From Candidatus Borkfalkia excrementavium (GTDB taxonomy: Bacteria; Bacillota; Clostridia; Christensenellales; Borkfalkiaceae), in NCBI GenBank assembly GCA_019115945.1, contig DXCO01000039.1:1-32736 (forward strand): a stretch of 32,736 bases of DNA, given 5' to 3'. The translations under genes were made by a program, and so were the position numbers. Positions 2,314 to 23,549 of the stretch are shown in pieces. The notes under the pieces were generated by a model that saw only the letters and a program-made list of their open reading frames with translations, was not told the origin of the DNA and searched no databases. Numbering within the stretch: position 1 is the first letter of the stretch; the number at the start of each line of letters is the position of its first letter.

Positions 2314-2745
2314 TTACAGCAATGTTTTCAGTTTGGAAATATCCGTGACCCACTCGTGGCGGCTGCGCTCTGCGTGCTCTCGGTTCGCCTGGCCGAGCGC
2401 GGCGTGGTATTCGCTCTGCGTCGCGCCGTTCACCTTCATGAAGTGCGCCTGCGCCTCTTTCTCTCTGCCCATAAGGGAGGTGCGCCCGATATGGATCACT
2501 TCGTGGCACGCGGGGCAGACGGCGATCACGTCTTCCAGTTTCTGAATATGTTTGTTATCGTCGTAACTCCAGATCTCGTGCGCTTCCAGCCTGCCCGCAG
2601 CCCCGCAGATGCAGCATCTGCCGCCCGCCCGCGCGTATGCGGCGCGGCGTATCCGATCCCATACTTCCTTGGGCAGAGCGCTCCGCAAGTTGGTATACCA
2701 GCATCCGTCGGGCACGAGCCCGAACCTGAGTTTATATTCTTTCAT
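2314..2745 (-). CDS. HNH-type nuclease-like protein
   Basis: This small HNH-fold protein has about 143 residues from ATG 2745; another ATG is at 2751 and a TTG at 2781. A zinc-knuckle CxxC pair (CCICGAAGRLEAHEIW) is followed by LEDVIAVCPACHEVIH. This is the CxxC...H...CxxCHxxIH layout of HNH nucleases such as the McrA/phage type. The N-terminus (KLRFGLVPDGCWYTNLRSALPKEVWDRIR) matches a widespread stand-alone bacterial HNH family of unknown role. The C-terminal third is a helical tail. The neighbours give no restriction or phage context. No Shine-Dalgarno site precedes either ATG, and a good promoter lies immediately upstream, so the mRNA may be leaderless. The substrate is unknown. Confidence 0.8.
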   Translation of the reverse strand: MKEYKLRFGLVPDGCWYTNLRSALPKEVWDRIRRAAYARAGGRCCICGAAGRLEAHEIWSYDDNKHIQKLEDVIAVCPACHEVIHIGRTSLMGREKEAQAHFMKVNGATQSEYHAALGQANREHAERSRHEWVTDISKLKTLL

Positions 2746-2752
2746 GGGCATT

Positions 2753-2781
2753 ATTTTAGCACAAAAGCGCCCGCCGCGCAA
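2753..2781 (-). promoter_or_regulatory. Extended -10 promoter abutting the HNH start
   Basis: On the minus strand TTGCGC (2781-2776), a 17-nt spacer and TGC-TAAAAT (-10 at 2758-2753) form a good sigma-A promoter. The expected transcription start at about 2747-2745 coincides with the ATG at 2745. Confidence 0.6.
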
Positions 2782-2876: not shown

Positions 2877-3611
2877 ATGGAATATGAAAATGCGGCAAGA
2901 TTTTTGAAAAGTTACAACCATATAGAGAATCAATTGAAAATTCTCTATAACGCGCGTCCGACGCAGAATTTTACCGATCTGGTCAAGCGCTGCACCGACC
3001 TGAATATCACGGTGCGGCGATACGAAAACGAACTGATCGATTACGGCAAACTGCGCAACGCCATCGTGCACCGCGCGGATGACGAAGAACTGTTTATCGC
3101 AAATCCCTGCGACAACGTCGTGGAGAATATCGCCTTTATCGAAAAGCAACTTTGCAATCCGCCCCGCCTGATCGACGCCATGAAGATCAGGAAGATTGCC
3201 ACCGTGTTTGCAGACAAGCCGCTGCTTACCGCCGCGGAGGCGTTTGCGGAGACGTGGCAGAAGACCCTGCTGGTATACGATCACGGCAAAATGGCGGGTG
3301 TCCTGAACGCGTACGCGCTGTATGCGGAGATCGCCGTCCGCGCGAAAAGGGGCGAAAACGTGACGGAATTTCTGGAAAACACTCTCTGCGGCGAGATCCT
3401 CGATCCCGAAGAATTTGAAAATTACCGCATCATGAGCGCCGCGGCGACCGTCTATGACGTCTTTACCGCTTTCGAAGAAAAAAAGGGCCTTTTAGCCGTC
3501 ATCATCACACAAAACGGCATTCTCGGGGAAAAGGCGATCAATATGGTGACGCCTGCCGATTTTCCGCGGATCAACCGGTTTTTAGAGGCGTATAACGTCA
3601 AGAGTTTTTGA
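2877..3611 (+). CDS. HEPN-like domain fused to a CBS pair
   Basis: This 244-residue soluble protein has no close family I can name. The N-terminal 95 residues are all-helical and contain KLRNAIVHR, with R60 and H65 in the RxxxxH spacing and the following Asn (RN) typical of HEPN ribonucleases and their inactive relatives. From about residue 103 onward there are two CBS-like repeats. The first contains PLLTAAEAFAETWQKTLLVYDHGKMAGVLN and the second YRIMSAAATVYDVFTAF followed by LLAVIITQNGILGEKAINMVTPAD. CBS pairs usually bind adenine nucleotides, so a nucleotide-controlled RNase or RNA-binding regulator is possible, but that is inference. The start uses AAGGAGGA with an 11-nt gap. The gene is followed 50 bp later by the promoter of a large putative RNA. 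Confidence 0.7.
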   Translation: MEYENAARFLKSYNHIENQLKILYNARPTQNFTDLVKRCTDLNITVRRYENELIDYGKLRNAIVHRADDEELFIANPCDNVVENIAFIEKQLCNPPRLIDAMKIRKIATVFADKPLLTAAEAFAETWQKTLLVYDHGKMAGVLNAYALYAEIAVRAKRGENVTEFLENTLCGEILDPEEFENYRIMSAAATVYDVFTAFEEKKGLLAVIITQNGILGEKAINMVTPADFPRINRFLEAYNVKSF

Positions 3612-3660
3612 GTGGCTGAAAAAAACTCTCAAAAAATTAAAAAAATTTTCAAAAAAGGTA

Positions 3661-3688
3661 TTGACAAATCAAAATTCGGTGGTATAAT
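3661..3688 (+). promoter_or_regulatory. Consensus promoter of the putative large RNA
   Basis: A perfect TTGACA (3661-3666) and a perfect TATAAT (3683-3688) are separated by 16 nt, among the best promoter matches in the window. No open reading frame with a usable start follows for more than 600 nt. Confidence 0.8.
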
Positions 3689-3694
3689 AGGGGT

Positions 3695-4318
3695 ACGAAA
3701 TAAGAGAGCCGAAGTCGGGAACAAGCCCGAACGGGGGCGCTCGGCCGAAAGGAAGGGAGGTTTTTTCTGTAAGCGGAACGGATCGGAAACTCCGGAGCAA
3801 ATTCTCGAGGACTTTATCCCGTAAAGATAAAGGGCGCGAAGGGGCGGACGAAAAGGACTGCAAGCGGATAAAAACGAACGGAAAATTCGGGTGCGCGTTC
3901 CGGCAAGGGTGAATTCCGCGGATTCATCTGCAGACGCCTATCTTCGTACGGGATGGCGGAAGATGCGGAATTGACCGAACGAAGTTCTTTTACGGCAGTG
4001 GGTTTATATCTGCATGCTCCGAAAGCAGTGCGCTTTCGGCCGAAAATTCAGGCGCGTAAGGAAAATAAAAGCACTTGTTCCGAAAAAGCGCGCATATTTG
4101 AGGCTTTGAGCGGATAAAAGGGGAAAATGACGATCCGTTAAAGGGAAAGCAAAATTTTTTCAAGGGGCGTTCTTTAACCGACAAGACGTCGCAAAAAGGG
4201 TTAAAAAGAGTAAGTCGCGTTCCAAAGAAAAAACTTTTCGGAATAAGCGGTTTGAAATGAGTATAAATGCCACAAAACGGGGCGGCGCGCGAAAGGCGCG
4301 CCGCCTTTTGTTTCTTTT
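3695..4318 (+). ncRNA. Putative large structured non-coding RNA, about 620 nt
   Basis: This stretch lies between a consensus promoter and a strong intrinsic terminator and has no credible coding frame on either strand. Local stems read directly from the sequence include 3715-3719/3726-3730 (enclosed by 3708-3712/3741-3745), 3812-3818/3826-3832, 3910-3914/3922-3926, 3935-3942/3952-3958, 3977-3980/3984-3987, 4019-4025/4033-4039, 4173-4179/4199-4205 and 4220-4226/4234-4242. The motif GCGGATAAAA occurs twice (3864-3873 and 4110-4119). A GGAAGGGAGG stretch at 3751-3760 looks like a ribosome site, but no start codon follows it. I looked for the signatures of RNase P RNA (GAGGAAAGTCC), tmRNA and SRP RNA and did not find them. 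The length suits OLE- or ROOL-class giant RNAs, but I cannot assign a class. Confidence 0.6.
4272..4318. terminator. Strong terminator, possibly bidirectional
   Basis: GGCGGCGCGC, loop GAAAG and GCGCGCCGCC form a GC-rich stem extended by ACAAAA/TTTTGT, followed by TTTCTTTT on the plus strand. It ends the putative RNA. On the minus strand a GTTTTGT follows the stem, so it may also end the converging flavodoxin transcript. Confidence 0.85.
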
Positions 4319-4376
4319 ATAAATCGTCGTGTGCAAATTCGCCGCGCGTATGCGGCATGCCGGGCAAGGGCGTGCC

Positions 4377-4907
4377 TTAAAGGCTTTTCGCCGCGTCAAT
4401 CACGGCTTTCGCCGTGCTTTCGTCGTAAAAATCGACCGCTTTGCCGTACGTTGCCAAAAGTTGTGCGTCCTCGGGGGAAGGGTCTTTTTTGCGCTTCAGG
4501 TACTGCATGAGCATCGCCATCATCGTGCGGTGCCCGAATTTCAGTTTGCCGTAATCGATCCCGCCGCGCAGGCAGAACACGGGCGCATCTTTTGCGGCGG
4601 CGCACTTCTTTTCAAACAGCATGCGCGCTTCGTCGCGCGTTTTTTGTTTTGCGGGATCGGCCAGCCCGCATACAAACAGCACAAGGCGGGGCGCTTTCGC
4701 TTTTGCGATCTTTTTTGCCGTCCGTTTCCATCCGCAGATGCTCCCCGCGTATACGCCTCCGCCGAAAACGACCGTTTTGCCCGCAAGATCTGCGGTGCGC
4801 ACCTCTTTTGCCGAAAGGGCGGGGCAGCCGAGCGCCGCCGCGATCGCGCGCGCGTATTTTTCCGTATTGCCGTAGTGAGATCCGTAAATCACGATGAAAG
4901 CGTGCAT
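4377..4907 (-). CDS. Flavodoxin-domain protein, HemG-like
   Basis: This FMN-binding flavodoxin-fold protein has 176 residues from ATG 4907, which has GGAGAAAG upstream; a longer frame to 5024 runs through the promoter and is not credible. The phosphate-binding loop IYGSHYGNTEKYA (residues 7-19) opens the domain. VVFGGGVYAGSICGW and LVLFVCGLADP follow as the expected core strands. The C-terminal part, GGIDYGKLKFGHRTMMAMLMQYLK, resembles the flavodoxin-type protoporphyrinogen oxidase (HemG) family, where a matching Gly-Gly-x-Asp-Tyr segment is common. No haem genes are in the window, so a general electron-transfer role is equally possible. The gene is monocistronic, with a good promoter and a 5' hairpin. 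Confidence 0.8.
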   Translation of the reverse strand: MHAFIVIYGSHYGNTEKYARAIAAALGCPALSAKEVRTADLAGKTVVFGGGVYAGSICGWKRTAKKIAKAKAPRLVLFVCGLADPAKQKTRDEARMLFEKKCAAAKDAPVFCLRGGIDYGKLKFGHRTMMAMLMQYLKRKKDPSPEDAQLLATYGKAVDFYDESTAKAVIDAAKSL

Positions 4908-13798: not shown

Positions 13799-14236
13799 AT
13801 GAACAGGGAACAGATCAAAGAATTTTTACCGCACAGAGAGCCGATGCTCCTTTTGGACGAAGTGGAAGTGAACGAAAAGGGAGAAGCGGTCGGCAGATAT
13901 ACCGTCAGGGGAGACGAATTCTTTTTGCAGGGGCATTTCCCCGGCAATCCCATCGTGCCCGGCGTCATTCAGTGCGAAATGATCGCCCAGACGGCCGTGG
14001 CCCTTCTTCCCGACAGCAAGGGAAAAACGCCCCTGTACACGGGGCTGAACAACGTGAAATTCAAAAATCCGCTCCTGCCCGGAGACACCGCCGAGATGAC
14101 GGTGTCCGTCACGGCGCGGCGCGGGATTTTCTGCTTTGCGAAAGGGGCGCTGCGTTCAGGCGGAAAACTTTGCACGAGCGCGGAATTTTCTTTCGCAATG
14201 CTTCCGAAAACGGAGGACGGGGCAGAAAAGGGCTGA
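13799..14236 (+). CDS. fabZ: 3-hydroxyacyl-ACP dehydratase
   Basis: This dehydrates 3-hydroxyacyl-ACP to trans-2-enoyl-ACP in type II fatty-acid synthesis. It has 145 residues with a single hot-dog fold. The family opening LPHREPMLLLDEV is at 10-22. The catalytic His46 lies in GHFPGNPIVPGV, with Glu60 on the following helix (IQCEMIAQ). FKNPLLPGD is the usual late motif. There is no FabA-type isomerase signature. ATG 13799 follows GAGGTGA. The gene has its own promoter and terminator, so it is transcribed apart from the fab operon that starts 165 nt later, whereas in many Clostridia fabZ sits between accB and accC. Confidence 0.95.
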   Translation: MNREQIKEFLPHREPMLLLDEVEVNEKGEAVGRYTVRGDEFFLQGHFPGNPIVPGVIQCEMIAQTAVALLPDSKGKTPLYTGLNNVKFKNPLLPGDTAEMTVSVTARRGIFCFAKGALRSGGKLCTSAEFSFAMLPKTEDGAEKG

Positions 14237-14257
14237 TGGAGTGTTGACAAATTGCCG

Positions 14258-14289
14258 AATACGTCCGCAAAAACGCGGGCGTATTTTGT
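14258..14289 (+). terminator. Terminator after fabZ
   Basis: AATACG-x-CCGC pairs with GCGG-x-CGTATT across an A-rich loop, followed by TTGTT. A second stem, CGGCCG/CGGCCG with a T6 loop, lies at about 14295-14312. Confidence 0.65.
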
Positions 14290-14349
14290 TGAAACGGCCG
14301 GTTTTTTCGGCCGCAGACCGCCCGATTTCGCAACAAACGGAAAAAAGGC

Positions 14350-14378
14350 TTGACGAAAAGGGCGCAAGTATTTATAAT
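14350..14378 (+). promoter_or_regulatory. Promoter of the fab operon
   Basis: TTGACG (14350-14355), 17 nt and TATAAT (14373-14378), with a start expected near 14385 and GAAGG ahead of the fabH ATG. No FapR-like operator was recognised. Confidence 0.75.
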
Positions 14379-14400
14379 GATTCATTAGAAGGTTACGCGT

Positions 14401-15363
14401 ATGTCATTTTATATTGCGGGCACGGGAAGCGCGCTTCCCGAAAAAGTTGTTTCCAACGACGATCTTGCCCAATTTCTCGATACATCCGACGAGTGGATCT
14501 ATACCCGTACGGGCATCAAACGCCGCCATGTGCTGACGGACGAACGGCTTGCGGATCTTGCAATCTTGTCAGCAAAGCGTGCGCTGGAAGACGCGCAGGT
14601 CTCGGCGGATGAGGTCGGGCTGATCCTCTGCGCCACCATGCGCGGCGATACGTTCACGCCGTCGTTGGCGTGCGCGATCGGCGAAGCGATCGGTTCGCAC
14701 GCGCCCGCGTTCGATCTGAATGCCGCATGCGTCGGCGCGCTCTACTGTATGGAGGTTGCGGACGCCTTTATTTCGACGGGCAGGGCGGATACCGTGCTGA
14801 TCGTCGGCGCGGAGGCGATGAGCAAACTTGTCGACTGGGAAGACAGGGCAAGTTGCGTCCTGTTCGGAGACGGCTCGGGCGCGATGGTCCTGAAAAAGGG
14901 AACGGGCAGGCTTTCCGCGATCCTTTCCACCGATCCGGATACGCATACCATCCGTATGCCGAATATAGAGGGGATCAACAGCCCTTACAACAAAAACCCG
15001 CAGGAAAAACTTGCCATGCACATGGACGGCGGCGAAGTGTATAAATTTGCCGTGAACGCCATGGGCCACTGCATCGAAGAGGTCTGCCGCCGCGCAAATC
15101 TTACGCCCGCGGAGATTGATTGGTATCTGCCGCACCAGGCGAATGCGCGCATCATCGAGGCGAGCCGCAAAAAGTTCAAGATCGACAAGAGCAAAGTTCT
15201 TCTGAATATTTCCGAGTACGGCAATATGAGCGCGACGTCCGTCGTCGTCCTTTTGGACGAATACGCCAGAAAGGGAACGTTCAAGAAGGGAGACAGACTT
15301 CTGTTCGTCGCTTTCGGCGGCGGGCTTACGAGCGGCGCCGTGATCGTCGAATGGAACAAATAA
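14401..15363 (+). CDS. fabH: 3-oxoacyl-ACP synthase III
   Basis: This initiates fatty-acid synthesis by condensing acyl-CoA (acetyl or branched) with malonyl-ACP. It has 320 residues in the thiolase fold. The catalytic triad is visible as Cys110 in DLNAACVGALY, the His of LPHQANARII (near 246) and the Asn of SEYGNMSATS (near 276). The N-terminal LPEKVVSNDDLAQFLDTSDEWIYTRTGI is the family signature, including the CoA-binding Trp32. The closing FVAFGGGLTSGAVIVEW is intact. It is the first gene of the operon. Whether it prefers acetyl- or branched-chain primers cannot be read from the sequence. Confidence 0.96.
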   Translation: MSFYIAGTGSALPEKVVSNDDLAQFLDTSDEWIYTRTGIKRRHVLTDERLADLAILSAKRALEDAQVSADEVGLILCATMRGDTFTPSLACAIGEAIGSHAPAFDLNAACVGALYCMEVADAFISTGRADTVLIVGAEAMSKLVDWEDRASCVLFGDGSGAMVLKKGTGRLSAILSTDPDTHTIRMPNIEGINSPYNKNPQEKLAMHMDGGEVYKFAVNAMGHCIEEVCRRANLTPAEIDWYLPHQANARIIEASRKKFKIDKSKVLLNISEYGNMSATSVVVLLDEYARKGTFKKGDRLLFVAFGGGLTSGAVIVEWNK

Positions 15364-15417
15364 TATCGAACACACTGAATAGAGATATATAAAAAATTGA
15401 AAAGGAGAAACAAAATT

Positions 15418-15645
15418 ATGGAAACATTGGAAAAATTGAAGGAAATTCTCAGCGAGTGCAAGGGCGAAGACCTCGATATCACGCCCGAAACCACATTTGA
15501 CGAACTCGATTTCGACTCCCTCGACAAAGTGGATATCGTCATGCAGATCGAAGAGGCGTACGACATCTCTTTGGGCGACAACATGCAGCTTTCCACCGTG
15601 GGCGAACTCGTCGCGAAGATCGACGAAGCGGTCGCGAATAAGTAA
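15418..15645 (+). CDS. acpP: Acyl carrier protein
   Basis: This small acidic carrier holds growing acyl chains on 4'-phosphopantetheine. It has 75 residues from ATG 15418, which has AAAGGAG about ten bases upstream; a TTG at 15397 lies before the ribosome site and is discarded. Ser34 in ELDFDSLDKVDIVMQIEE is the attachment serine. The four-helix layout and acidic helix 2 are typical. The E. coli DSLD motif is conserved exactly. It sits between fabH and fabK, as in many Clostridia and Streptococcus fab operons. Confidence 0.96.
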   Translation: METLEKLKEILSECKGEDLDITPETTFDELDFDSLDKVDIVMQIEEAYDISLGDNMQLSTVGELVAKIDEAVANK

Positions 15646-15666
15646 TCGAAAGTTTCGGGCATAAGT

Positions 15667-16608
15667 ATGCAGACGAAACTGACGAAACTGCTCGGTATCG
15701 AGCACCCGATCATTCAGGGCGGAATGGCGTGGATCGCGGACGCTTCCCTGGCGAGCGCTGTATCCAACGCGGGCGGTCTTGGCATCATTTCCGCCATGAA
15801 CGCCGACGCCGATTGGGTCAGAAACGAAATAAAAAAATGCCGCACGCTGACGGATAAGCCGTTCGGCGTGAATATCATGCTCATGAGCCCTCATGTCGAA
15901 GAGGTCGCCAAGATGGTCGCCGAAGAAAAGGTTCCCGTCGTCACGACGGGTGCGGGCAATCCGTCGCGCTTCGTCAAGGCGTGGAAAGAGGCGGGGATCG
16001 TCATCATCCCCGTCGTGGCGAGCACGGCGCTTGCAAAAATGGTCGAGCGCGCGGGCGTGGACGCTGTGATCGCCGAGGGCGGCGAGAGCGGCGGACACGT
16101 GGGCGATCTTACCACGATGGCGCTCGTGCCGCAGGTCGTCGACGCCGTCAAGATCCCCGTCATCGCGGCGGGCGGCATCGGAGACGGCAGAGGCGTCGTC
16201 GCCGCGTTCGCGTTGGGCGCCTGCGGCGTACAGATGGGCACGCGCTTTCTCGTTGCGGACGAATGCACCGTATCTGAAGAATACAAAAAGAAGGTGCTTG
16301 CCGCAAAGGATATTTCGACCATGGTCACGGGCAGACGGCTCGGCCATCCCGTCCGCGCCATCAAAAACGCATACATGAACAATTACGCCAAATTGGAGGC
16401 GGATTCCAATGTACCCGACGAAACGCTGGAGCAGTTCGGCGTGGGTTCGCTTCGAAAGGCGGCCAAAGAGGGCAATGCGGACGAGGGCTGCTTCCTTGCG
16501 GGGCAGATCGCCGGCATGGTCAGCAAACGCCAGAGCGCAAAGGAGATCGTCGGCGAAGTCATGGCGCAGGCGGATAAGATGATGGAGGGCGTGCAGTGGG
16601 ACGTGTAG
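15667..16608 (+). CDS. fabK: Enoyl-ACP reductase II (FMN)
   Basis: This reduces trans-2-enoyl-ACP in the last step of each elongation cycle. It has 313 residues and is an FMN TIM-barrel enzyme related to nitronate monooxygenase. IIQGGMAWIADASLASAVSNAGGLGII opens the barrel. AEGGESGGHVGD carries the catalytic His and phosphate-binding glycines, followed by VIAAGGIGDGRGV and GVQMGTRFL. Family context (fabH-acpP-fabK-fabD) makes FabK far more likely than nitronate monooxygenase. FabK is triclosan-tolerant, unlike FabI, which is absent from the window. The ribosome site is weak, so translation may be coupled to acpP 21 nt upstream. It ends in TAG. Confidence 0.94.
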   Translation: MQTKLTKLLGIEHPIIQGGMAWIADASLASAVSNAGGLGIISAMNADADWVRNEIKKCRTLTDKPFGVNIMLMSPHVEEVAKMVAEEKVPVVTTGAGNPSRFVKAWKEAGIVIIPVVASTALAKMVERAGVDAVIAEGGESGGHVGDLTTMALVPQVVDAVKIPVIAAGGIGDGRGVVAAFALGACGVQMGTRFLVADECTVSEEYKKKVLAAKDISTMVTGRRLGHPVRAIKNAYMNNYAKLEADSNVPDETLEQFGVGSLRKAAKEGNADEGCFLAGQIAGMVSKRQSAKEIVGEVMAQADKMMEGVQWDV

Positions 16609-17432
16609 CCTTCCTATTTGCCGGTCAGGGCGCGCAGGTGCCCGGCATGGCGGGAGACGTCGCACATCTCCCCAAGGTAAAAAAACTGTTCGATCTTGCC
16701 GACGGCATCCGCCCCGGCATTGTCGATAAAATGCTTTCGGGCACGCAGGAAGAGTTGAACAGAACGCTCCTGACGCAGCCGACGATGTTTTTGGCAGACC
16801 TCGCCTACGCATACGCGAAGGAAGAGGAGTTTGGCGCGCCCGAGTGCGTATGCGGGTTCTCCGTGGGCGAAGTGCCCGCGCTCTGTTTTGCGGGAGCATT
16901 GTCCGAAAAAGACGCCTTTTCCGCGATCGTAAAACGCGCGGAACTGATGGAGGCGTACACACAGCGCGTACAGGGCTGCATGATCGCCGTGGTCAAACTG
17001 CCGCGCGATCAGGTCGAAGCGCTGTGCGACGGCGTTTCTTCCCACCCCGCGAACTATAACGGCGCGTTGCAGACGGTCGTGGCCTGCCGCGCGAGCGCGG
17101 AGCAGGAATTTACGGAAAAAGTCAAGGCCGCGGGCGGCAGAGCGATGAAACTTCGCGTATCGGGCATGTTCCATTGCCCCGAACTTGCGCCCGAAGCGGA
17201 AGAATTTGAAAAATATCTGCGCACGCTCGAATTCGGCAGCCCGCGTATGGACGTATACGCCAACCTGACCGCAAAGCCGTACGAAGGAGATTTTGCATCG
17301 ACGCTCGCAATGCAGATGCGTTCGCCCGTCCGCTTTACGGAGACGGTCGCGGCGATGAAAACGCGCGGGATCGACACCTTTGTCGAAGTCGGGCCGGGCA
17401 AAGTCCTGACGGGGCTGGTACAGAGAGGATAA
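16596..17432 (+). CDS. fabD: Malonyl-CoA:ACP transacylase
   Basis: This transfers malonyl from CoA to ACP. It has 278 residues from GTG 16596, overlapping fabK by 13 nt, which implies translational coupling. The oxyanion loop FAGQGAQVPGM opens the protein. The catalytic Ser89 lies in CGFSVGEVPAL, where the usual GHSLGE is changed to GFS. The catalytic His is in MFHCPEL (near 189), and KRAELM stands where RG-x-x-M is common. FVEVGPGKVLTGL closes the fold. At 278 residues it is about 30 shorter than E. coli FabD, mainly through loops. All catalytic residues remain. Confidence 0.93.
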   Translation: MGRVAFLFAGQGAQVPGMAGDVAHLPKVKKLFDLADGIRPGIVDKMLSGTQEELNRTLLTQPTMFLADLAYAYAKEEEFGAPECVCGFSVGEVPALCFAGALSEKDAFSAIVKRAELMEAYTQRVQGCMIAVVKLPRDQVEALCDGVSSHPANYNGALQTVVACRASAEQEFTEKVKAAGGRAMKLRVSGMFHCPELAPEAEEFEKYLRTLEFGSPRMDVYANLTAKPYEGDFASTLAMQMRSPVRFTETVAAMKTRGIDTFVEVGPGKVLTGLVQRG

Positions 17433-17738
17433 CCGATTCGCGAAAAAGGGTTAAGCGAATAAAACTTTTTCGCGGAATTGAGGACTGCCCCGGGTACGCG
17501 GCAAAACCGCTGACCGCCGGAGTTTTCCTCTCCGTGCAATATTTCAGTGCATGTTTATTGTTGAATTTGCGCGGCTTCACCTTTTCTGCAAAAGCAAAAG
17601 TATTTGCAAATGAGGGTGCGCTGACGCAAAAGCGCCCCAAGTTGCCGCAACGGGTTATCCGCTTTTGCATAAATATCCGCATGCGGCCGCTTCACAAAAT
17701 CGGCAGGTTGCCGGGATTTTCGTGAATAAGGAGTTTTT
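17433..17738 (+). other. 306-nt structured gap between fabD and fabG
   Basis: No gene is visible. There are three stem systems. The first is TTCGCGAAAAAG/CTTTTTCGCGGAA (17437-17448/17465-17477). The second is a nested pair, outer TGCAAAAGC/GCTTTTGCA (17587-17595/17661-17669) and inner GGGTGCGCT/AGCGCCCC (17614-17622/17631-17638). The third, at 17692-17725, abuts the fabG ribosome site. None has a terminator T-run and no strong promoter was found. Other junctions in the operon are 5 to about 130 nt, so this insert is exceptional and may be a regulatory RNA element or a small repeat insertion. Confidence 0.5.
17692..17725 (+). promoter_or_regulatory. SD-adjoining hairpin before fabG
   Basis: TCAC-AAAATC-GGCA, loop GGT, TGCC-(GG)-GATTTT-(C)-GTGA forms a long stem ending two bases before the AAGGAG ribosome site at 17728. 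Its apex and base resemble the hairpin before fabF. Confidence 0.5.
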
Positions 17739-18476
17739 ATGGATAAAAGAGTCGCCCTGATTACGGGCGCGGGGAGAGGCATCGGAGCAAAGATCGCGCT
17801 TGCCCTCGCCGCAGACAATACGGATATTGCAGTCGTGGATTACGGCGAAGAATCCGCCGCGAAAGAGACGCTTGACGCGCTTGCGGCGGCGGGCGTCACG
17901 GCGCGCTATTACCGCTGCGACGTTTCCGATTTTTCCGCGACGAAAGAGGTCGTGGACCAGATTCTGAAAGATTTCGGCAGGATCGATATACTCGTCAACA
18001 ACGCGGGCATCACCGCGGATAAACTGATCATGCGCATGGACGAGGCGGATTGGGACAGAGTGCTGTCCATCAATCTGAAGGGCTGTTTCAATATGATCAA
18101 GCACGTTACCCCGTTTATGATGCGCAAGCGGTTCGGCAGGATCGTATCCGTCAGTTCCGTCGTGGGGCTGATGGGCAATGCGGGGCAGGCGAATTACGCC
18201 GCTTCCAAAGCGGGCATCGTGGGGCTGACGAAATCCGTCGCCAAAGAATTCGGTTCCCGCAACATTACGGCAAACGCCGTCGCGCCCGGGTTCATCCGCA
18301 CCGCCATGACGGATGCGCTCACGGAAGAACAGAAAAAAGAAATGTATAAACTTATTCCGCTCGGCTCTCTCGGCGAGACGGACGACGTCGCAAACGCGGT
18401 CAGGTTTCTCGTTTCCGATGCGGCCCGCTATATCACGGGCGTCGTTCTCAAAGTGGACGGCGGGATGTATATATAA
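17739..18476 (+). CDS. fabG: 3-oxoacyl-ACP reductase
   Basis: This NADPH-dependent reductase converts 3-oxoacyl-ACP to 3-hydroxyacyl-ACP. It has 245 residues in the short-chain dehydrogenase fold. The cofactor loop TGAGRGIG is at 9-16, CDVSD and NNAG (NNAGITADKLIMRM) follow, and the catalytic Ser-Tyr-Lys is in SVSSVVGLMGNAGQANYAASKAG (near 139, 152 and 156). NAVAPGFIRTAMTDAL is the FabG substrate loop and the end, GVVLKVDGGMYI, is canonical. AAGGAG precedes the ATG by five bases. Position between fabD and fabF confirms the assignment over generic SDR enzymes. Confidence 0.96.
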   Translation: MDKRVALITGAGRGIGAKIALALAADNTDIAVVDYGEESAAKETLDALAAAGVTARYYRCDVSDFSATKEVVDQILKDFGRIDILVNNAGITADKLIMRMDEADWDRVLSINLKGCFNMIKHVTPFMMRKRFGRIVSVSSVVGLMGNAGQANYAASKAGIVGLTKSVAKEFGSRNITANAVAPGFIRTAMTDALTEEQKKEMYKLIPLGSLGETDDVANAVRFLVSDAARYITGVVLKVDGGMYI

Positions 18477-18546
18477 GCAGACCGGACGAAATTTCCGAAC
18501 GGGATGAAAGGCGGCCGCAGGGCGCTGTTTCAAGGCGTCTGAAGAT

Positions 18547-18585
18547 CACGGAAAACAGGGAACGGCGGTTGCCGTCTCTTCCGTG
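18547..18585 (+). promoter_or_regulatory. SD-adjoining hairpin before fabF
   Basis: The outer stem CACGGAA/TTCCGTG (18547-18553/18579-18585) and inner stem ACGGC/GCCGT (18562-18566/18571-18575) sit just before the AGAGGAG ribosome site. From the GGCGGTTGCC apex through the start codon the sequence resembles the fabG leader. Confidence 0.5.
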
Positions 18586-18602
18586 AAAAAAGAGGAGTTT
18601 TT

Positions 18603-19835
18603 ATGAATAGAAGAGTTGTTGTAACGGGGCTCGGTGCGGTAACGCCGCTCGGGAACGACGTGAAAACCACTTGGGAAAATATGGTCCGGGGCGTCAACGG
18701 GATCGATACGGTCACGAAATTCGACGCTTCCGAATATAAATGCACTTTTGCGGGCGAGGTGCGCGGATTCGATCCCGTGCTGTATATGCCCAAGGGCGAA
18801 GTGCGCAAAAGCGATCTGTATACCCAATACGCGCTCGCCGCGGCGGCGCAGGCGTACGATGACAGCGGTTTTACGATCGACACGATCGCGCCCGAAAGAT
18901 TCGGCGTTTATATCGGTTCGGGGATCGGCGGCATACAGACGCTGATCACCGAGCACGAAAAATTTATGGAGAAGGGCCCCGGCAGGGTCTCTCCCTTCTT
19001 CGTTCCCATGATGATCTCCAATATGGCGTCGGGTACGGTCGCCGTCAAATACAACGCGCAGGGGCCGAACGTCGGCATCGTGACCGCCTGTGCGACCTCT
19101 ACCAACAGCATCGGCGAGGCGTTCCGCGCGATCAAACACGGTTATGCGGACGCCATGCTCGCGGGCGGCAGCGAAGCGGCGATCACGCCCATGTGTTTTG
19201 CGGGATTTATCAGTTGTCAGGCCCTTTCGCAGGCTGCGGATAAAGACCGCGCGTCCATTCCTTTCGACAAAGAGCGCAGCGGTTTTGTCATGGGCGAAGG
19301 CGGAGCGGTCATGATGCTGGAAGAATACGAACACGCGAAAGCGCGCGGGGCAAAGATCTATGCGGAGATCGTCGGCTACGGCTGCACGAACGACGCATAT
19401 CATATGACCGCGCCCAATCCCGAAGCGATCGCGTCTTCCCGCGCCGTCGAACTTGCGGCGAAGGAAGGACAGGTCGACGTATCGAAGGGCGTGTACGTCA
19501 ATGCGCACGGCACGGGAACCCCCCTGAACGATAAGACGGAAACGCTCGCGCTCAAGCGCGCATTCGGGCAGGACGCTTATAAACTGCACGTCTCTTCCAC
19601 CAAGTCCATGACGGGGCATATGCTGGGAGCCGCGGGCGGCGTCGAGGCGATCGCGTCCGTTCTCGCCCTGTGCGACGGCGTGATCCCGCCCACCATCAAT
19701 TACAAGGTCAAAGACGAGGAATGCGACCTCGACATCACCCCCAATCAGGCGCGCGAGGCGGACGTCGCGTTTGCGCTGTCCACGTCGCTCGGGTTCGGGG
19801 GGCATAACGGCTGTCTCGCATTCCGAAAAATATAA
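18603..19835 (+). CDS. fabF: 3-oxoacyl-ACP synthase II
   Basis: This is the elongating condensing enzyme, joining malonyl-ACP to the acyl chain. It has 410 residues. The Cys-His-His triad is in VTACATSTNSIGEA (Cys near 163), VNAHGTGTPLNDKTET and KSMTGHMLGAAGG. The opening RRVVVTGLGAVTPLGND and closing STSLGFGGHNGCLAFRK are standard for FabF, not FabB. The length is normal for the family. It is the last gene before a terminator-like hairpin. AGAGGAG lies six bases upstream of the ATG. Confidence 0.96.
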   Translation: MNRRVVVTGLGAVTPLGNDVKTTWENMVRGVNGIDTVTKFDASEYKCTFAGEVRGFDPVLYMPKGEVRKSDLYTQYALAAAAQAYDDSGFTIDTIAPERFGVYIGSGIGGIQTLITEHEKFMEKGPGRVSPFFVPMMISNMASGTVAVKYNAQGPNVGIVTACATSTNSIGEAFRAIKHGYADAMLAGGSEAAITPMCFAGFISCQALSQAADKDRASIPFDKERSGFVMGEGGAVMMLEEYEHAKARGAKIYAEIVGYGCTNDAYHMTAPNPEAIASSRAVELAAKEGQVDVSKGVYVNAHGTGTPLNDKTETLALKRAFGQDAYKLHVSSTKSMTGHMLGAAGGVEAIASVLALCDGVIPPTINYKVKDEECDLDITPNQAREADVAFALSTSLGFGGHNGCLAFRKI

Positions 19836-19846
19836 CGGCAAAAACG

Positions 19847-19887
19847 GCGCGTTTGTTATGATAGATCGTAATAAACGTGCTTTTTTG
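19847..19887 (+). terminator. Terminator or attenuator between fabF and accB
   Basis: GCGCGTTTGTTA (19847-19858) pairs with TAATAAACGTGC (19869-19880) in a 12-bp stem containing two G-U pairs, followed by six T. It could end the fab transcript or attenuate read-through into acc. TGTTATGAT within the left arm also resembles an extended -10 (no good -35). Confidence 0.7.
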
Positions 19888-19915
19888 AACGGACGGTCTC
19901 AAAAAGGAGAACGAA

Positions 19916-20362
19916 ATGGAAAAGAAAAAAATTACTGAACTGATAGAAATTTTCAAAGAGAGCGGCCTTTCGTCGATGGAGTTTTCCGAAACGGCGGGGG
20001 ATAAAAGTTTTTCGCTGAAACTGGAAAACGGAGCGGGGCAGCCGATCGCATATTCCCCGCTACCCGTCAGGGAAGCCGTCGCGGAGGCGCCCATTCCCGC
20101 GCCCGAGGACGTGAAGGACTACAACAAATACCGCGATATCCGCTCGCCCATGGTCGGGATTTTTTATGCCGCGCCCAGCCCCGAAGCGGAACCCTTCGTA
20201 AAAGTGGGGCAGAAAGTGAAAAAGGGGGATACCCTCTGCATCATCGAGGCGATGAAACTGATGAACGACGTCGTTGCCGAGGAGAGCGGAGAGATCGTCG
20301 AAATCTGCGCGGAAAACGGCGCCCTGGTCGAGTTCGGTCAGGTACTCTTCAAAATATTCTGA
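19916..20362 (+). CDS. accB: Biotin carboxyl carrier protein of acetyl-CoA carboxylase
   Basis: This carries carboxybiotin between AccC and the AccA-AccD carboxyltransferase. It has 148 residues. The N-terminal helical domain ([23 protein letters not shown]) is followed by a Pro/Ala-rich linker (about 43-66) and the biotinyl domain from 72. Lys114 in [11 protein letters not shown] is the biotin site, and the thumb region [14 protein letters not shown] is present. AAAAAGGAG precedes the ATG by about seven bases. It opens the acc segment directly after a terminator-like stem. Confidence 0.96.
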
Positions 20363-20389
20363 CCGTGATCGGGGGAGCATAGGCACCCC

Positions 20390-20407
20390 GCGCCGCGTTT
20401 GCGGCGC
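20390..20407 (+). other. Intercistronic hairpin before accC
   Basis: GCGCCGC-GTTT-GCGGCGC is a perfect 7-bp GC stem in the 70-nt accB-accC gap, without a T-run. A comparable stem (GGCGCG/CGCGCC) lies before accD at about 21816-21836. Confidence 0.5.
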
Positions 20408-20432
20408 AACAGCGGCAAAGGACAGGTAAAAA

Positions 20433-21779
20433 ATGTTCAGCAAAATCCTGATCGCAAACCGCGGAGAGATCGCGGTGCGCATTATCCGCGCCTGCAACGA
20501 AATGGGCATCGAGACGGTGGCCGTCTATTCCGAGGCGGACGCCGAAGCCCTGCACGTGAGCCTTGCGGATGAAAGTTACTGCATAGGACCCGCCCTGTTG
20601 AAGGACAGTTACCTCAACATGACCGCCATCATAGACGTGGCGATCGCGACGGGCTGTCAGGCGATCCACCCCGGATACGGGCTTTTGAGCGAAAATCCGA
20701 GGTTTGCGGAACTGTGCGAAAAGTGCAACATAAAATTTATCGGCCCTCATTTTTCCGTCATTGCGAAAATGGGGGATAAAGACGAGGCCCGGCGCACCAT
20801 GAAGGCGGCGGGCGTGCCCGTCGTTCCCGGGCTTGACGAGATCACGGACGTGGCGGAAGCGAAAAAGTTTGCGTCCGAAATCGGGTATCCCGTCATCATA
20901 AAGGCGAGCGCGGGCGGCGGCGGAAAGGGGATCCGGATCGTCTATAAAGAAGAGGACTTTGAAAGCGCCCTCGAAACGGCCTCGGCCGAGGCAAAAAATG
21001 CCTTCGGCAACGGCAAATGCTATCTTGAAAAATACCTTACCGACGTCAAACACGTAGAAATGCAGATCGTTGCGGACGAACAGGGGAACGTCGTCTGCCT
21101 CGGCGAGCGCGACTGCTCCATGCAGCGCAGGAATCAGAAACTTATCGAAGAGAGCCCGTGCGTCGTTCTCCCGCCCGAAGTGCGCGAGGAGATGATGCGC
21201 TGTGCGGTCCTCGCCGCAAAGGCGGTCAAATACACAAATCTGGGCACCATCGAATTTTTGTTGGATAAGAACAATAAATTCTATTTCATGGAAATGAATA
21301 CCCGTCTGCAGGTGGAGCACCCCGTCACCGAATACGTCACGGGGATCGACGTCGTAAAGTGGCAGATCCGCATCGCCGCGGGGTTGGAATTCAATTTTAA
21401 GCAAGAGGATATCCGCATGCGCGGCTGCGCGATCGAATGCCGCATCAATTCGGAAGACGCGCGCAGCAATTTCCGCCCCAGTTGCGGCAGGATCACCCTT
21501 CTGCACATTCCGGGCGGGCCGTGGGTCCGGTTCGATACCGCCATCTACCAGGATTATATGATCCCTCCCTATTACGACAGCATGATCGGCAAACTGATCG
21601 TGTACGCGCACGACAGGACGGAGGCGATCCGCAAAATGCAGGCGGCGCTGTGCGAACTGGTCATCGAGGGCGTGCAGACGAATGCGGAACTTTCCAGCGA
21701 TATTCTCGCGCAGCCCGAGTTCAAAGACGGTACTTACTGTACGAATTTTTTGGATAAATTCTTAAAAAATTACAAATAA
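20433..21779 (+). CDS. accC: Biotin carboxylase subunit of acetyl-CoA carboxylase
   Basis: This carboxylates the biotin of AccB with bicarbonate and ATP. It has 448 residues in the ATP-grasp fold. The opening FSKILIANRGEIAVRIIRAC and IHPGYGLLSENP are family signatures. The glycine-rich ATP lid SAGGGGKGIRIV lies near residues 160-171, followed by ERDCSMQRRNQKLIEESP and the catalytic region EMNTRLQVEHPVTE. The C-terminal domain contains ARSNFRPSCGRI. The length is standard, and it is free-standing, not fused to BCCP. AGGACAGGT supplies the ribosome site. Confidence 0.96.
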   Translation: MFSKILIANRGEIAVRIIRACNEMGIETVAVYSEADAEALHVSLADESYCIGPALLKDSYLNMTAIIDVAIATGCQAIHPGYGLLSENPRFAELCEKCNIKFIGPHFSVIAKMGDKDEARRTMKAAGVPVVPGLDEITDVAEAKKFASEIGYPVIIKASAGGGGKGIRIVYKEEDFESALETASAEAKNAFGNGKCYLEKYLTDVKHVEMQIVADEQGNVVCLGERDCSMQRRNQKLIEESPCVVLPPEVREEMMRCAVLAAKAVKYTNLGTIEFLLDKNNKFYFMEMNTRLQVEHPVTEYVTGIDVVKWQIRIAAGLEFNFKQEDIRMRGCAIECRINSEDARSNFRPSCGRITLLHIPGGPWVRFDTAIYQDYMIPPYYDSMIGKLIVYAHDRTEAIRKMQAALCELVIEGVQTNAELSSDILAQPEFKDGTYCTNFLDKFLKNYK

Positions 21780-21894
21780 TCGGTTGTCGGCGGGGGTTAT
21801 TGAAAGGCCGCATCCGGCGCGTTTGTTTGCGCGCCGATGTGCCCGTATGCCCGCCGCGTATGCGAAGGTCGTTATGTTTACGGAGTAAACGGAA

Positions 21895-22788
21895 ATGAAA
21901 TTCGATTTCAGAAAATTCTTTTTCAAAAAGCCGAAAAACGAACTGGAAGGTTCGGAAAACGGCGTTCGGACGCCCGAAAGTCAGTTTCAGGATGCGTCCA
22001 TACCCGAAAAACTTGCCGAAAAGTGCGAAAAGTGCGGGCAGATCGTCCTGTCGGACGAATTTGCCGCAAATTTCGGGGTTTGCCCCAAGTGCGGGCATTA
22101 TCGCAAACTGGACGCCCGCGCCCGCATTTCCATGTGCGCGGATGCGGATACCTTTGAAGAACTTTTTGCGGAAGAGGAGGGGGGGAATCCCCTGAATTTT
22201 CCGGGTTATGACGAAAAATTGCAGAGTCTTAGGGAAAAAACGGGAGAAAAAGAGGGCGTCGTCTGCGGCATTGCAAAGATCGGCGGTGTCCGCTGCGCTC
22301 TGTTTTCCATGGATTACCGCTTTATGATGGGCAGCATGGGGCATACCGTCGGAGAAAAGATCGCAAAGACTTTTGAATACGCCACGGAGCATGCCCTTCC
22401 CGTCGTCGGGTTTGTTCTGAGCGGCGGCGCGCGCATGCACGAGGGGATCATTTCCCTCATGCAGATGGCAAAAACTTCCGCAGCGGTCGCAAAGCACGGC
22501 GAAGCGGGGCTTTTGTATATTTCCGTTCTCACCGATCCCACAACGGGCGGCGTTTCCGCCTCTTTTGCGTTTGAAGCGGATATCATTATGGCGGAAAAGG
22601 GCGCGCTGATCGGCTTTGCCGGACCGCGCGTCATCGAACAGACCATCCGCCAGACCCTGCCCGAGGGATTCCAGCGTGCGGAATTCATACAGGAAAAGGG
22701 CTTTGCCGACCTGATCGTGGAAAGGAAGGAAATGAAAGACAAACTTGCCCTTCTGTTGAAAATGCACTGCGCGGAGGTGTTGGCATGA
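21895..22788 (+). CDS. accD: Acetyl-CoA carboxylase carboxyltransferase beta subunit
   Basis: With AccA this transfers the carboxyl group from biotin to acetyl-CoA. It has 297 residues. The zinc ribbon is Cys44, Cys47, Cys63 and Cys66 (CEKCGQIVLSDEFAANFGVCPKCGHY), a hallmark of bacterial AccD. The crotonase-like core follows with FVLSGGARMHEGIISLMQMAKT and TDPTTGGVSASFAFEADI. GFAGPRVIEQTIRQTLPEGFQRAEFI is the usual late motif. GGAG lies about nine bases before ATG 21895. It overlaps accA by ATGA, so the two subunits of the heterotetramer are translationally coupled. Confidence 0.96.
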   Translation: MKFDFRKFFFKKPKNELEGSENGVRTPESQFQDASIPEKLAEKCEKCGQIVLSDEFAANFGVCPKCGHYRKLDARARISMCADADTFEELFAEEEGGNPLNFPGYDEKLQSLREKTGEKEGVVCGIAKIGGVRCALFSMDYRFMMGSMGHTVGEKIAKTFEYATEHALPVVGFVLSGGARMHEGIISLMQMAKTSAAVAKHGEAGLLYISVLTDPTTGGVSASFAFEADIIMAEKGALIGFAGPRVIEQTIRQTLPEGFQRAEFIQEKGFADLIVERKEMKDKLALLLKMHCAEVLA

Positions 22789-23549
22789 ACGCTTACGAGA
22801 TCGTTTTGAAAAGCCGCGAAAAGGGCAGGCCGACCGCCCTGAAATATATCGGATCGATCGTTGAAAATTTTATCGAACTGCACGGAGACAGGCGCTTTGC
22901 CGACGATAAGGCAATCGTTGCGGGCATCGGCACGATTTCAGGCATGCCCGTTACAGTCATCGGCATCGAAAAGGGGAGCGACACGCACGATAAGATCGCG
23001 CACAATTTCGGCTGCGCGCATCCGGAAGGTTACAGAAAGGCGGTCCGCCTGATGAAAGAGGCGGAAAAATTTCATCGCCCCGTACTCTGTTTTGTCGATA
23101 CGTCGGGCGCATACTGCGGCATCGGCGCGGAAGAGCGCGGCCAGAGCGAGGCGATCGCCATGAGCATACTCGACATGATCCGCCTGAAAACGCCTACGCT
23201 TACCGTCATCATCGGCGAGGGCGGCAGCGGCGGCGCGCTCGGGCTTTCCGCCGCGGACGAAGTCTGGATCACGGAGACCTCCACCTATTCGGTCATTTCT
23301 CCCGAAGGGTGCGCGTCTATCCTCTGGAAGGACAGTTCGAAGGTCGCCGAGGCTTCCGAGTGCCTGAAACTGACGGCGAACGATCTCCTTTCGCTGGGCG
23401 CGGCAGAGCGTGTGCTCGCCGAAGACGGTTTTTCCGATTCGTTTTTTGCGGGGCTGAAAGGGGAAATTTACGAATTTTTCAAAGAAAAGATGAAAATTCC
23501 GCCCGAACAACTGGCGGAAGAGAGATATCGCCGCTTCCGCAAATTCTGA
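22785..23549 (+). CDS. accA: Acetyl-CoA carboxylase carboxyltransferase alpha subunit
   Basis: This is the partner of AccD in the carboxyltransferase. It has 254 residues, compact compared with the roughly 315 of E. coli AccA, and lacks most of the N-terminal helical extension. The core motifs IENFIELHGDRRFADDKAIVAGIG-like opening, GCAHPEGYRKAVRLMKEAEKF, FVDTSGAYCGIGAEERGQSEAIA and IIGEGGSGGALGL are intact, as is STYSVISPEGCASILW. Short AccA forms are common in Firmicutes. It is the last acc gene. No terminator was seen before degV. Confidence 0.95.
   Translation: MNAYEIVLKSREKGRPTALKYIGSIVENFIELHGDRRFADDKAIVAGIGTISGMPVTVIGIEKGSDTHDKIAHNFGCAHPEGYRKAVRLMKEAEKFHRPVLCFVDTSGAYCGIGAEERGQSEAIAMSILDMIRLKTPTLTVIIGEGGSGGALGLSAADEVWITETSTYSVISPEGCASILWKDSSKVAEASECLKLTANDLLSLGAAERVLAEDGFSDSFFAGLKGEIYEFFKEKMKIPPEQLAEERYRRFRKF

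Follow-up and report, generated by a model that had tools for sequence, protein, structure and literature searches.

A large structured RNA of the Christensenellales and its likely HEPN-CBS protein partner

What kind of molecule is encoded between positions 3661 and 4318 of this DNA, and with what does it work? The locus lies in a 32,736-nucleotide stretch of Candidatus Borkfalkia excrementavium (the window), and the first-pass annotation had read it as a large structured RNA with a promoter and terminator of its own. The perfect TTGACA/TATAAT pair that it claimed is present at 3661..3688 of the forward strand, within an extended -10 promoter of the sigma-A type that scores 12/12 matches (TTGACA, 16 nt, TATAAT, with TG ahead of the -10), and is common to relatives; in the window copy, tracts rich in A/T lie directly upstream. 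We counted the promoter over 47 loci, comprising 30 from a DNA search of the genus and 17 of 20 that were fetched later (4 from the own genus, g1; 9 from g10; 1 from g8; 3 from g98). TTGACA and TG are present in 47/47 and TATAAT at the 16-nt spacing in 44/47: the first set (L001 and L009-L037) has all three elements in 30/30, and the second has TTGACA and TG in 17/17 with an exact TATAAT in 14/17. Three loci were excluded from the promoter, ORF and distance counts, namely L097 (a second copy, no promoter found), L098 (a TTGACT variant) and L100 (a contig end).

Downstream of this promoter we place a large non-coding RNA at 3690..4305 (forward strand), its start inferred from the promoter and its 3' end set at the hairpin stem. 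With ends chosen by script, the RNA measures 575-822 nt in 47 homologues (median 667; the ends of L022 and L105 are uncertain). The strong GC terminator described by the first-pass annotation was recovered as a GC-rich, intrinsic-terminator-like hairpin, GGCGGCGCGC-GAAAG-GCGCGCCGCC, with a T-rich tail at 4279..4318 of the forward strand. A pattern search located a GC-rich hairpin downstream in 30/30 same-genus loci, that of L022 being of a different kind. Just past the terminator ends a gene for a flavodoxin-domain protein (4377-4907, reverse strand; Pfam match), a relative of which is the downstream neighbour only at some same-genus loci.

We evaluated the coding potential of the region by ORF comparison. 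Between promoter and hairpin the window copy has two forward ORFs of at least 30 aa, of 31 aa and 54 aa, neither with a partner at E < 1e-3 in other loci, and conserved ORFs were rejected as an explanation on this basis. A 70-aa GTG ORF that spans the promoter (3612-3824) had no Pfam match at E <= 0.001. When 314 ORFs from both strands were compared, 277 pairs were found at E < 1e-3; many of these, on either strand, can be traced to shared RNA sequence, and a few loci contain partners of two reverse-strand ORFs of the window copy. The earlier statement that no credible coding frame exists is upheld for about 615 nt, in which ORF comparison found no conserved protein frame on the forward strand. 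A repeated motif to which the same annotation drew attention was over-read: GCGGATAAAA does occur twice in the window RNA but in 0/46 other RNAs, and is therefore not a feature of the class.

The local stems that had been read in this region exist, and their real support is comparative, from RNAalifold energies and covariation. Single-sequence folding of the window RNA gave z = -1.31, with 1/20 shuffles equally good; it was discarded as structure evidence, and the case was therefore built on comparison. Thirty loci were oriented (L001, L009-L037), and 29 of the sequences were aligned over 871 columns (A1), revealing conserved islands with variable stretches between them. L022 was left out of A1 and of a second alignment, A2, because its 3' end and hairpin differ, and both L022 and L035 were omitted from the subclade folds.

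The diagnostic part of the class, on which models R1 and R2 are based, is a 3' core of six nested helices (4135..4252, forward strand) that includes a conserved AAGNGUAAGU block at 4206-4215. As written for L030, the helices are H1 ACGG:CCGU, H2 AAAAG:CUUUU, H3 UUUUCG:CGGAAA, H4 GAACCG:CGGUUC, H5 UUUGACC:AGUCAAA and H6 GAC:GUC, and H5 of the window copy is UUUAACC:GGUUAAA. In A2, a MAFFT alignment of 29 sequences that was not fitted to the model, 17/31 core pairs show compensatory change and 92.5% of cells pair, and 0/500 shuffles reach any of five measures. A3, which holds 52 homologues and leans towards the core model because it was fitted to it, shows compensatory change in 27/31 core pairs (0/500 shuffles); 95.1% of its cells pair, and a one-column shift of the partners lowers pairing to 57-59%.

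Upstream of the core lies a 5' and central domain (3701..4120, forward strand), a long rod with hairpins whose sequence is variable, with a conserved CUGCAGACG block at 3928-3936, and which covaries within subclades. Compensatory change affects 48/92 pairs in subclade A (10 sequences; shuffled mean 26.8, 0/300) and 37/73 pairs in subclade B (11 sequences; shuffled mean 18.8, 0/300), a test that favours these structures because they were predicted from the same alignments. In two subclades the RNAalifold energy falls under the average of 20 column shuffles, by 20 and 26 SD. A third, subclade C with 7 sequences, was also folded, and the covariation figures cover A and B. Within this domain, a hairpin CGAAAGC...GCUUUCG at 4020..4038 (forward strand) is supported by the alignment and the subclade folds, its arms co-varying in relatives (GAAAACGC/GCGUUUU, GGAAAUG/CAUUUCC). 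The consensus folds also contain a long-range helix that closes the 3' half, in which the 5' arm GUGG-GUUUAUAU (3998..4009, forward strand) pairs with 4261-4273; the arms read GUGGUUUUUAC x GUAAAAAUCAC in one subclade, GUUUAUAUA x UGUAUAAAC in another and GACGGAUAUUU x AAAUAUUCGUC in another genus. A longest-run pairing test gave a clear signal for this helix in many relatives; in the window copy, as in roughly half of the 47 RNAs, the signal did not exceed that of shuffled arms, so the helix rests on the subclade folds. Covarying stems among relatives, which had been named beforehand as a test of the RNA reading, are thus abundant in both the 3' core and the 5'/central domain. Comparative sequence analysis demonstrates a large conserved RNA structure at 3690..4305.

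How far does this RNA extend? NCBI taxonomy places Candidatus Borkfalkia in the Christensenellales. A DNA search of 40 genomes of the genus, its own included, gave matches in 35. Of 251 family genomes, 49 were positive for the core with model R1: 38 belong to the own genus, 9 to g10 and 1 to g8, and the last, from g11, is a weak match at E 1.6e-3. R2 recovered the same 49. The remaining two members of the genus, G019 (L027, 106.3 bits) and G035 (L159, 102.9 bits), also carry the core, which brings the 3' core to 40/40 sampled genus genomes. At order level the core was matched in 8/396 genomes, of which four belong to another family (f32, g98), and among 391 genomes at class level the own genome is the sole match. 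Searches over more than 40 genomes used stricter filters, under which only 9-14 candidates were scored per genome, and absences of the RNA are therefore soft. R2 matches in g11 are weak (E 6.4e-4 and 0.05), the g5 candidate scores E 0.95 at the right place and the g12 candidate has no match, so that membership of g11, g5 and g12 is tentative. A pattern search returned 13 matches in genome contigs; five fall in unrelated organisms and were put down to chance. One genome holds a second, more divergent copy of the core (L097; G037:C100:10144-10268; E 1.4e-5), for which no promoter was found in the upstream bases available.

Clustering of ORFs around the RNA identified one gene that lies directly upstream of it in several genera. 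In the window this gene occupies 2877..3611 of the forward strand and encodes a 244-aa protein that we designate HEPN-CBS on the basis of Pfam matches, an RNAIVH motif and a CBS fold; its tie to the RNA rests on linkage and co-occurrence. The earlier reading of the locus as a large structured RNA is supported; it overlooked this linked gene, from which function can best be guessed. By tblastn the gene is present in the fetched flank of 42/54 loci. It lies upstream on the same strand, 44-248 nt from the promoter, at 38/47 promoter-bearing loci, which cover g1, g10, g8 and f32/g98, and it also adjoins the RNA in G035, outside the 47. The nine loci without an adjoining gene are L018 (a contig end, with 173 bases available), L105 (3.5 kb available) and seven others with about 1 kb of flank available (L019, L020, L021, L024, L025, L027, L036). 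In four of these nine cases (G005, G017, G027 and G032) the HEPN-CBS gene shares contig and strand with the RNA and sits farther off, 4.5-5.8 kb ahead of the promoter; in G028, G036, G037 and G038 the RNA and the gene are on separate contigs. Both are likewise present on different contigs in the two g11 genomes (G049, G066). Two further neighbours were noted by eye. An HNH-like ORF (2314-2781, reverse strand; no Pfam match found) is divergent from the HEPN-CBS gene and stands beside it at many same-genus loci. At L150 and L151 (the g11 genomes G049 and G066), a gene resembling a CCA-adding tRNA nucleotidyltransferase directly follows the HEPN-CBS gene, hinting at a tie of the HEPN-CBS protein to tRNA metabolism.

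We then compared the distribution of protein and RNA. A protein profile gave matches in 54/241 family genomes. We set the cut for the close version of the protein at 270 bits or more, the next matches, at 249 bits and below, being a paralogue. The close version is found in 49/241 family genomes from six genera (36 in g1, 8 in g10, 2 in g11 and 1 each in g5, g8 and g12); G008 was counted although its gene is split into two pieces in the assembly. The RNA is detected by model in 46/49 of these genomes, and the other three show weaker marks. G066 has an R2 match at E 0.05, and its AAGAGTAAGT lies 625 nt downstream of a promoter and is followed by a hairpin. In G096 a promoter stands 63 nt behind the HEPN-CBS gene, with AAGTGTAAGTT ahead of a hairpin, and in G050 a promoter stands 51 nt behind the gene, with GAGTAAGG motifs, in a locus that is cut by the contig end. 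The candidate RNA of this last locus (L152) has a repeated block around AACAAAGAGTAAGGTAAAG, itself cut by the contig end.

Taken the other way, 46/49 RNA-positive family genomes are listed with the close protein, and G030, G033 and G248 have the gene adjoining the RNA. These counts omit G019, which was not in the protein search, and assume that the 241 protein-searched genomes lie within the 251 searched for RNA. Among the 192 sampled genomes that lack the close protein, the model found no RNA, these absences being soft. Five g10 genomes with the distant paralogue only have no RNA by model, and two of them searched with looser filters gave a best E of 2.7. In the other family, three of four f32 genomes have the HEPN-CBS gene adjoining the RNA, and the fourth (G538) is cut by a contig end. 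The signal comes mostly from one genus and one locus, and so amounts to fewer independent observations than genomes. With that reading of the counts, the partnership of the RNA with the HEPN-CBS protein is well supported. We consider it probable that the locus encodes a structured RNA, about 0.62 kb long and trans-acting, that has its own sigma-A promoter and terminator and whose partner is the HEPN-CBS protein, probably in a ribonucleoprotein (RNP). Action in trans is suggested because the RNA has its own promoter and because copies away from the gene keep both promoter and core.

The same facts could describe an independent housekeeping RNA, like 6S or OLE, for which the HEPN-CBS gene is a long-standing neighbour of no functional tie. 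A strong promoter of its own would suit such an RNA, as would the 9/47 loci whose fetched flank lacks the gene and the unlinked arrangement in g11. However, RNA and gene are both retained where they are unlinked or kilobases apart, and genomes without the close protein yielded no RNA by model, subject to the softness of those absences. We regard this explanation as unlikely, though it keeps some weight.

We next asked what the HEPN-CBS protein is. Searched alone against Pfam at E <= 0.001, the window protein matches nothing. At E <= 1, a set of 17 members matches CBS in 17/17 (best 8.9e-8; the window protein reaches 18 bits, the cut-off being 24) and HEPN_RiboL-PSP in 14/17 (best 3.5e-4; window protein 0.048, below the curated cut-off), and NCBIfam gave weak, scattered matches only. 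AlphaFold2 modelled the whole protein with a pLDDT of 88 in the best model and 62-74 in the other four, and the first 100 residues with 86. The whole model had 248 Foldseek matches at E <= 0.001, the best 50 of which are mostly CBS proteins. The N-terminal model had no match at E <= 0.001; among the 50 matches listed, the top TM-scores (0.45 and 0.44, E 6-8) belong to 5yep_B and 7ae9_D. The entry 7ae9 is titled as a HEPN toxin, and we take 5yep to be one also. The RNAIVH motif (RNxxxH) is invariant, R60, N61 and H65 being kept in 17/17 and in 16/16 rows, and it ends a helix at residues 50-63 of the predicted model. HEPN domains have been recognised by an Rx4-6H motif with a polar residue after the R, at the end of helix 3 (available excerpt of PMC3710099), and the N-terminal domain agrees with this in motif and in predicted helix position. 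Together, the weak Pfam scores, the motif and the helix layout predict an N-terminal domain that is HEPN-like, and structural modelling establishes a CBS pair with a CBS fold in the partner protein.

Most of the same genomes contain a distant HEPN-CBS paralogue, at G000:C12:80369-81088 in the own genome (L143) with counterparts at L144-L149, L160 and L161. At these nine loci a search of up to 900 nt downstream of the gene found no promoter of the RNA type, and R2 gave nothing better than E 0.7; an RNA of this class beside the paralogue was rejected on these grounds. The region downstream of the paralogue in L143-L145 resembles, by eye, a T-box leader, and has no Rfam match at gathering.

A HEPN-like protein gene adjoining a structured RNA also recalls type III-like toxin-antitoxin or defence pairs, in which the RNA would be a pure antitoxin against a toxic HEPN RNase, the role that RCd22 has towards AbiF. 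The precedent is close in some respects: according to the available excerpt of PMC12373285, AbiF is a HEPN-type protein bound directly by a neighbouring RNA that has a sigma-A promoter and a terminator, so that a HEPN-type gene beside a structured RNA with both signals is common to the two systems. RCd22, however, is described there as about 100-130 nt long, with two short repeated motifs, and upstream of its gene. The Borkfalkia RNA is about 620 nt long and downstream, and the abiF motif (RF03085) is absent from the Rfam results for the window and the relatives' loci; the protein is not Abi_2 by Pfam, that family being absent from the 14 listed for the 17 members at E <= 1. The same excerpt (PMC12373285) describes the antitoxin RNAs of type III systems as short arrays of repeats that precede the toxin gene. 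With ToxIN the Borkfalkia pair would share the notion that an RNase is bound and kept in check by an RNA, but it lacks a tandem-repeat antitoxin (no short repeat array in the window copy, and the RNA has its own promoter), has the opposite gene order and is inherited vertically.

A defence role has a further precedent in DS-11, found with DefensePredictor, in which CBS and HEPN share one polypeptide, as in the Borkfalkia protein, and mutation in either domain abolishes phage defence (available excerpt of PMC13092281). That excerpt mentions no RNA partner for DS-11, the Borkfalkia protein is genus-wide, and the two were compared by description. For three members, the best PADLOC match had E 0.0086. 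We found no match to the RNA in 50,697 phage records, and neither the RNA motif nor the protein in viral contigs by pattern and protein searches; plasmids hold four distant relatives of the protein (25-32% identity). A phage or plasmid origin was rejected on these results. The presence of the RNA in 40/40 sampled genus genomes points to physiology rather than to a mobile defence module, and we judge a toxin-antitoxin or defence pair improbable.

A cis-regulatory or 3'-UTR element of the HEPN-CBS gene would explain why the RNA follows that gene by 44-248 nt in the same orientation, but its own promoter at 47/47 loci where one was placed, and the promoter and core kept by displaced and unlinked copies, make this very doubtful.

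We also asked whether the RNA is already catalogued. The Rfam-wide search proposed in the first-pass annotation gave nothing at the gathering score in the window (release 15), and with permissive filters at E <= 10 the interval 3600-4400 gave noise only, with no credible match. The weak matches in the region were rejected, because their scores amount to a fraction of gathering and the majority overlap the terminator hairpin. Nothing reached gathering in 12 loci of relatives or in a second set of 12 (one repeated), and the covariance models for OLE, ROOL and GOLLD were not matched at the locus or in the tested relatives. The absence of RNase P, tmRNA and SRP signatures, noted earlier by inspection, was confirmed. 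No SRP model matched in the window. RNase P RNA (RF00010; in the own genome on G000:C40) lies elsewhere in 10/10 element-carrying genomes, in pieces in two of them; tmRNA (RF00023) is elsewhere and over the cut-off in 10/10; and 6S RNA (RF00013) is elsewhere in 10/10, six over the cut-off and four below. Size and structural richness aside, then, a divergent RNase P, tmRNA, 6S, OLE, ROOL or GOLLD RNA is scarcely credible, the first three having their own genes elsewhere in the 10 genomes searched and Rfam offering no believable match. The suggestion of a new or divergent class of large structured RNA is supported by the covariation and by the lack of a matching Rfam family; on this sequence evidence it is a class outside Rfam 15, in the order Christensenellales. 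A search of open-licence literature found no paper on noncoding or structured RNA in Borkfalkia, Christensenella or Christensenellales.

Bacterial RNAs of such size are few and mostly unexplained. The gene for OLE RNA is linked to a partner gene. OLE RNA is about 600 nt long, highly structured, found in Bacillota and works in an RNP (available excerpt of PMC12286853), and in size, structure and phylum the Borkfalkia RNA is alike. It differs in having no Rfam match, in a predicted partner that is a soluble HEPN-CBS protein where OLE has OapA and OapC, and in its host clade.

These data allow us to propose a mechanism for the trans-acting RNA and its partner. HEPN and CBS domains usually form homodimers. 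In the scheme that we infer, which extends to transcription, binding, RNase activity, the ligand and the role of the RNA as inhibitor, guide or scaffold, the RNA would be made from its own strong sigma-A type promoter, with the intrinsic terminator setting its end. The HEPN-CBS protein, as a homodimer, would bind it, most likely by way of the 3' core, where the AAGNGUAAGU block lies, and the HEPN RNase would be held or positioned by the RNA within the RNP. A nucleotide sensed by the CBS pair would then switch the HEPN domain, which may cut the RNA partner or other cellular RNAs. Anantharaman et al. 2013 noted HEPN-CBS fusions and predicted that they link the sensing of nucleotides to RNA stability (PMC3710099); the Borkfalkia protein has the same domain fusion, and the available excerpt of that paper describes no RNA gene with such fusions. 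The RNA matches no catalogued family and is co-inherited with the HEPN-CBS gene, and it may therefore be the RNA half of an RNA-protein switch. A new kind of housekeeping RNP, in which a structured RNA of 0.6 kb that is no antitoxin repeat controls or directs a CBS-regulated HEPN RNase, tying nucleotide state to RNA turnover in a branch of gut Clostridia, is a possibility that we put forward tentatively.

Here a large RNA has a concrete candidate partner, the gene for a predicted nucleotide-sensing RNase, retained through displacement and patchy presence. One suggestion traces the nuclease domain of Cas13 to HEPN-type AbiD/F proteins that have RNA partners (available excerpt of PMC12373285). 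If the proposal is true, a large-RNA, genus-wide case would show that HEPN-RNA pairing extends beyond defence, and a gut lineage seen here only through draft assemblies would gain an RNA regulator of its own. Elsewhere in the window, an ORF run at 13799-23549 resembles, by eye from its translations, a cluster for fatty-acid synthesis and acetyl-CoA carboxylase, and positions 24670-27270 encode an 866-aa predicted surface protein that by eye is leucine-rich-repeat-like.
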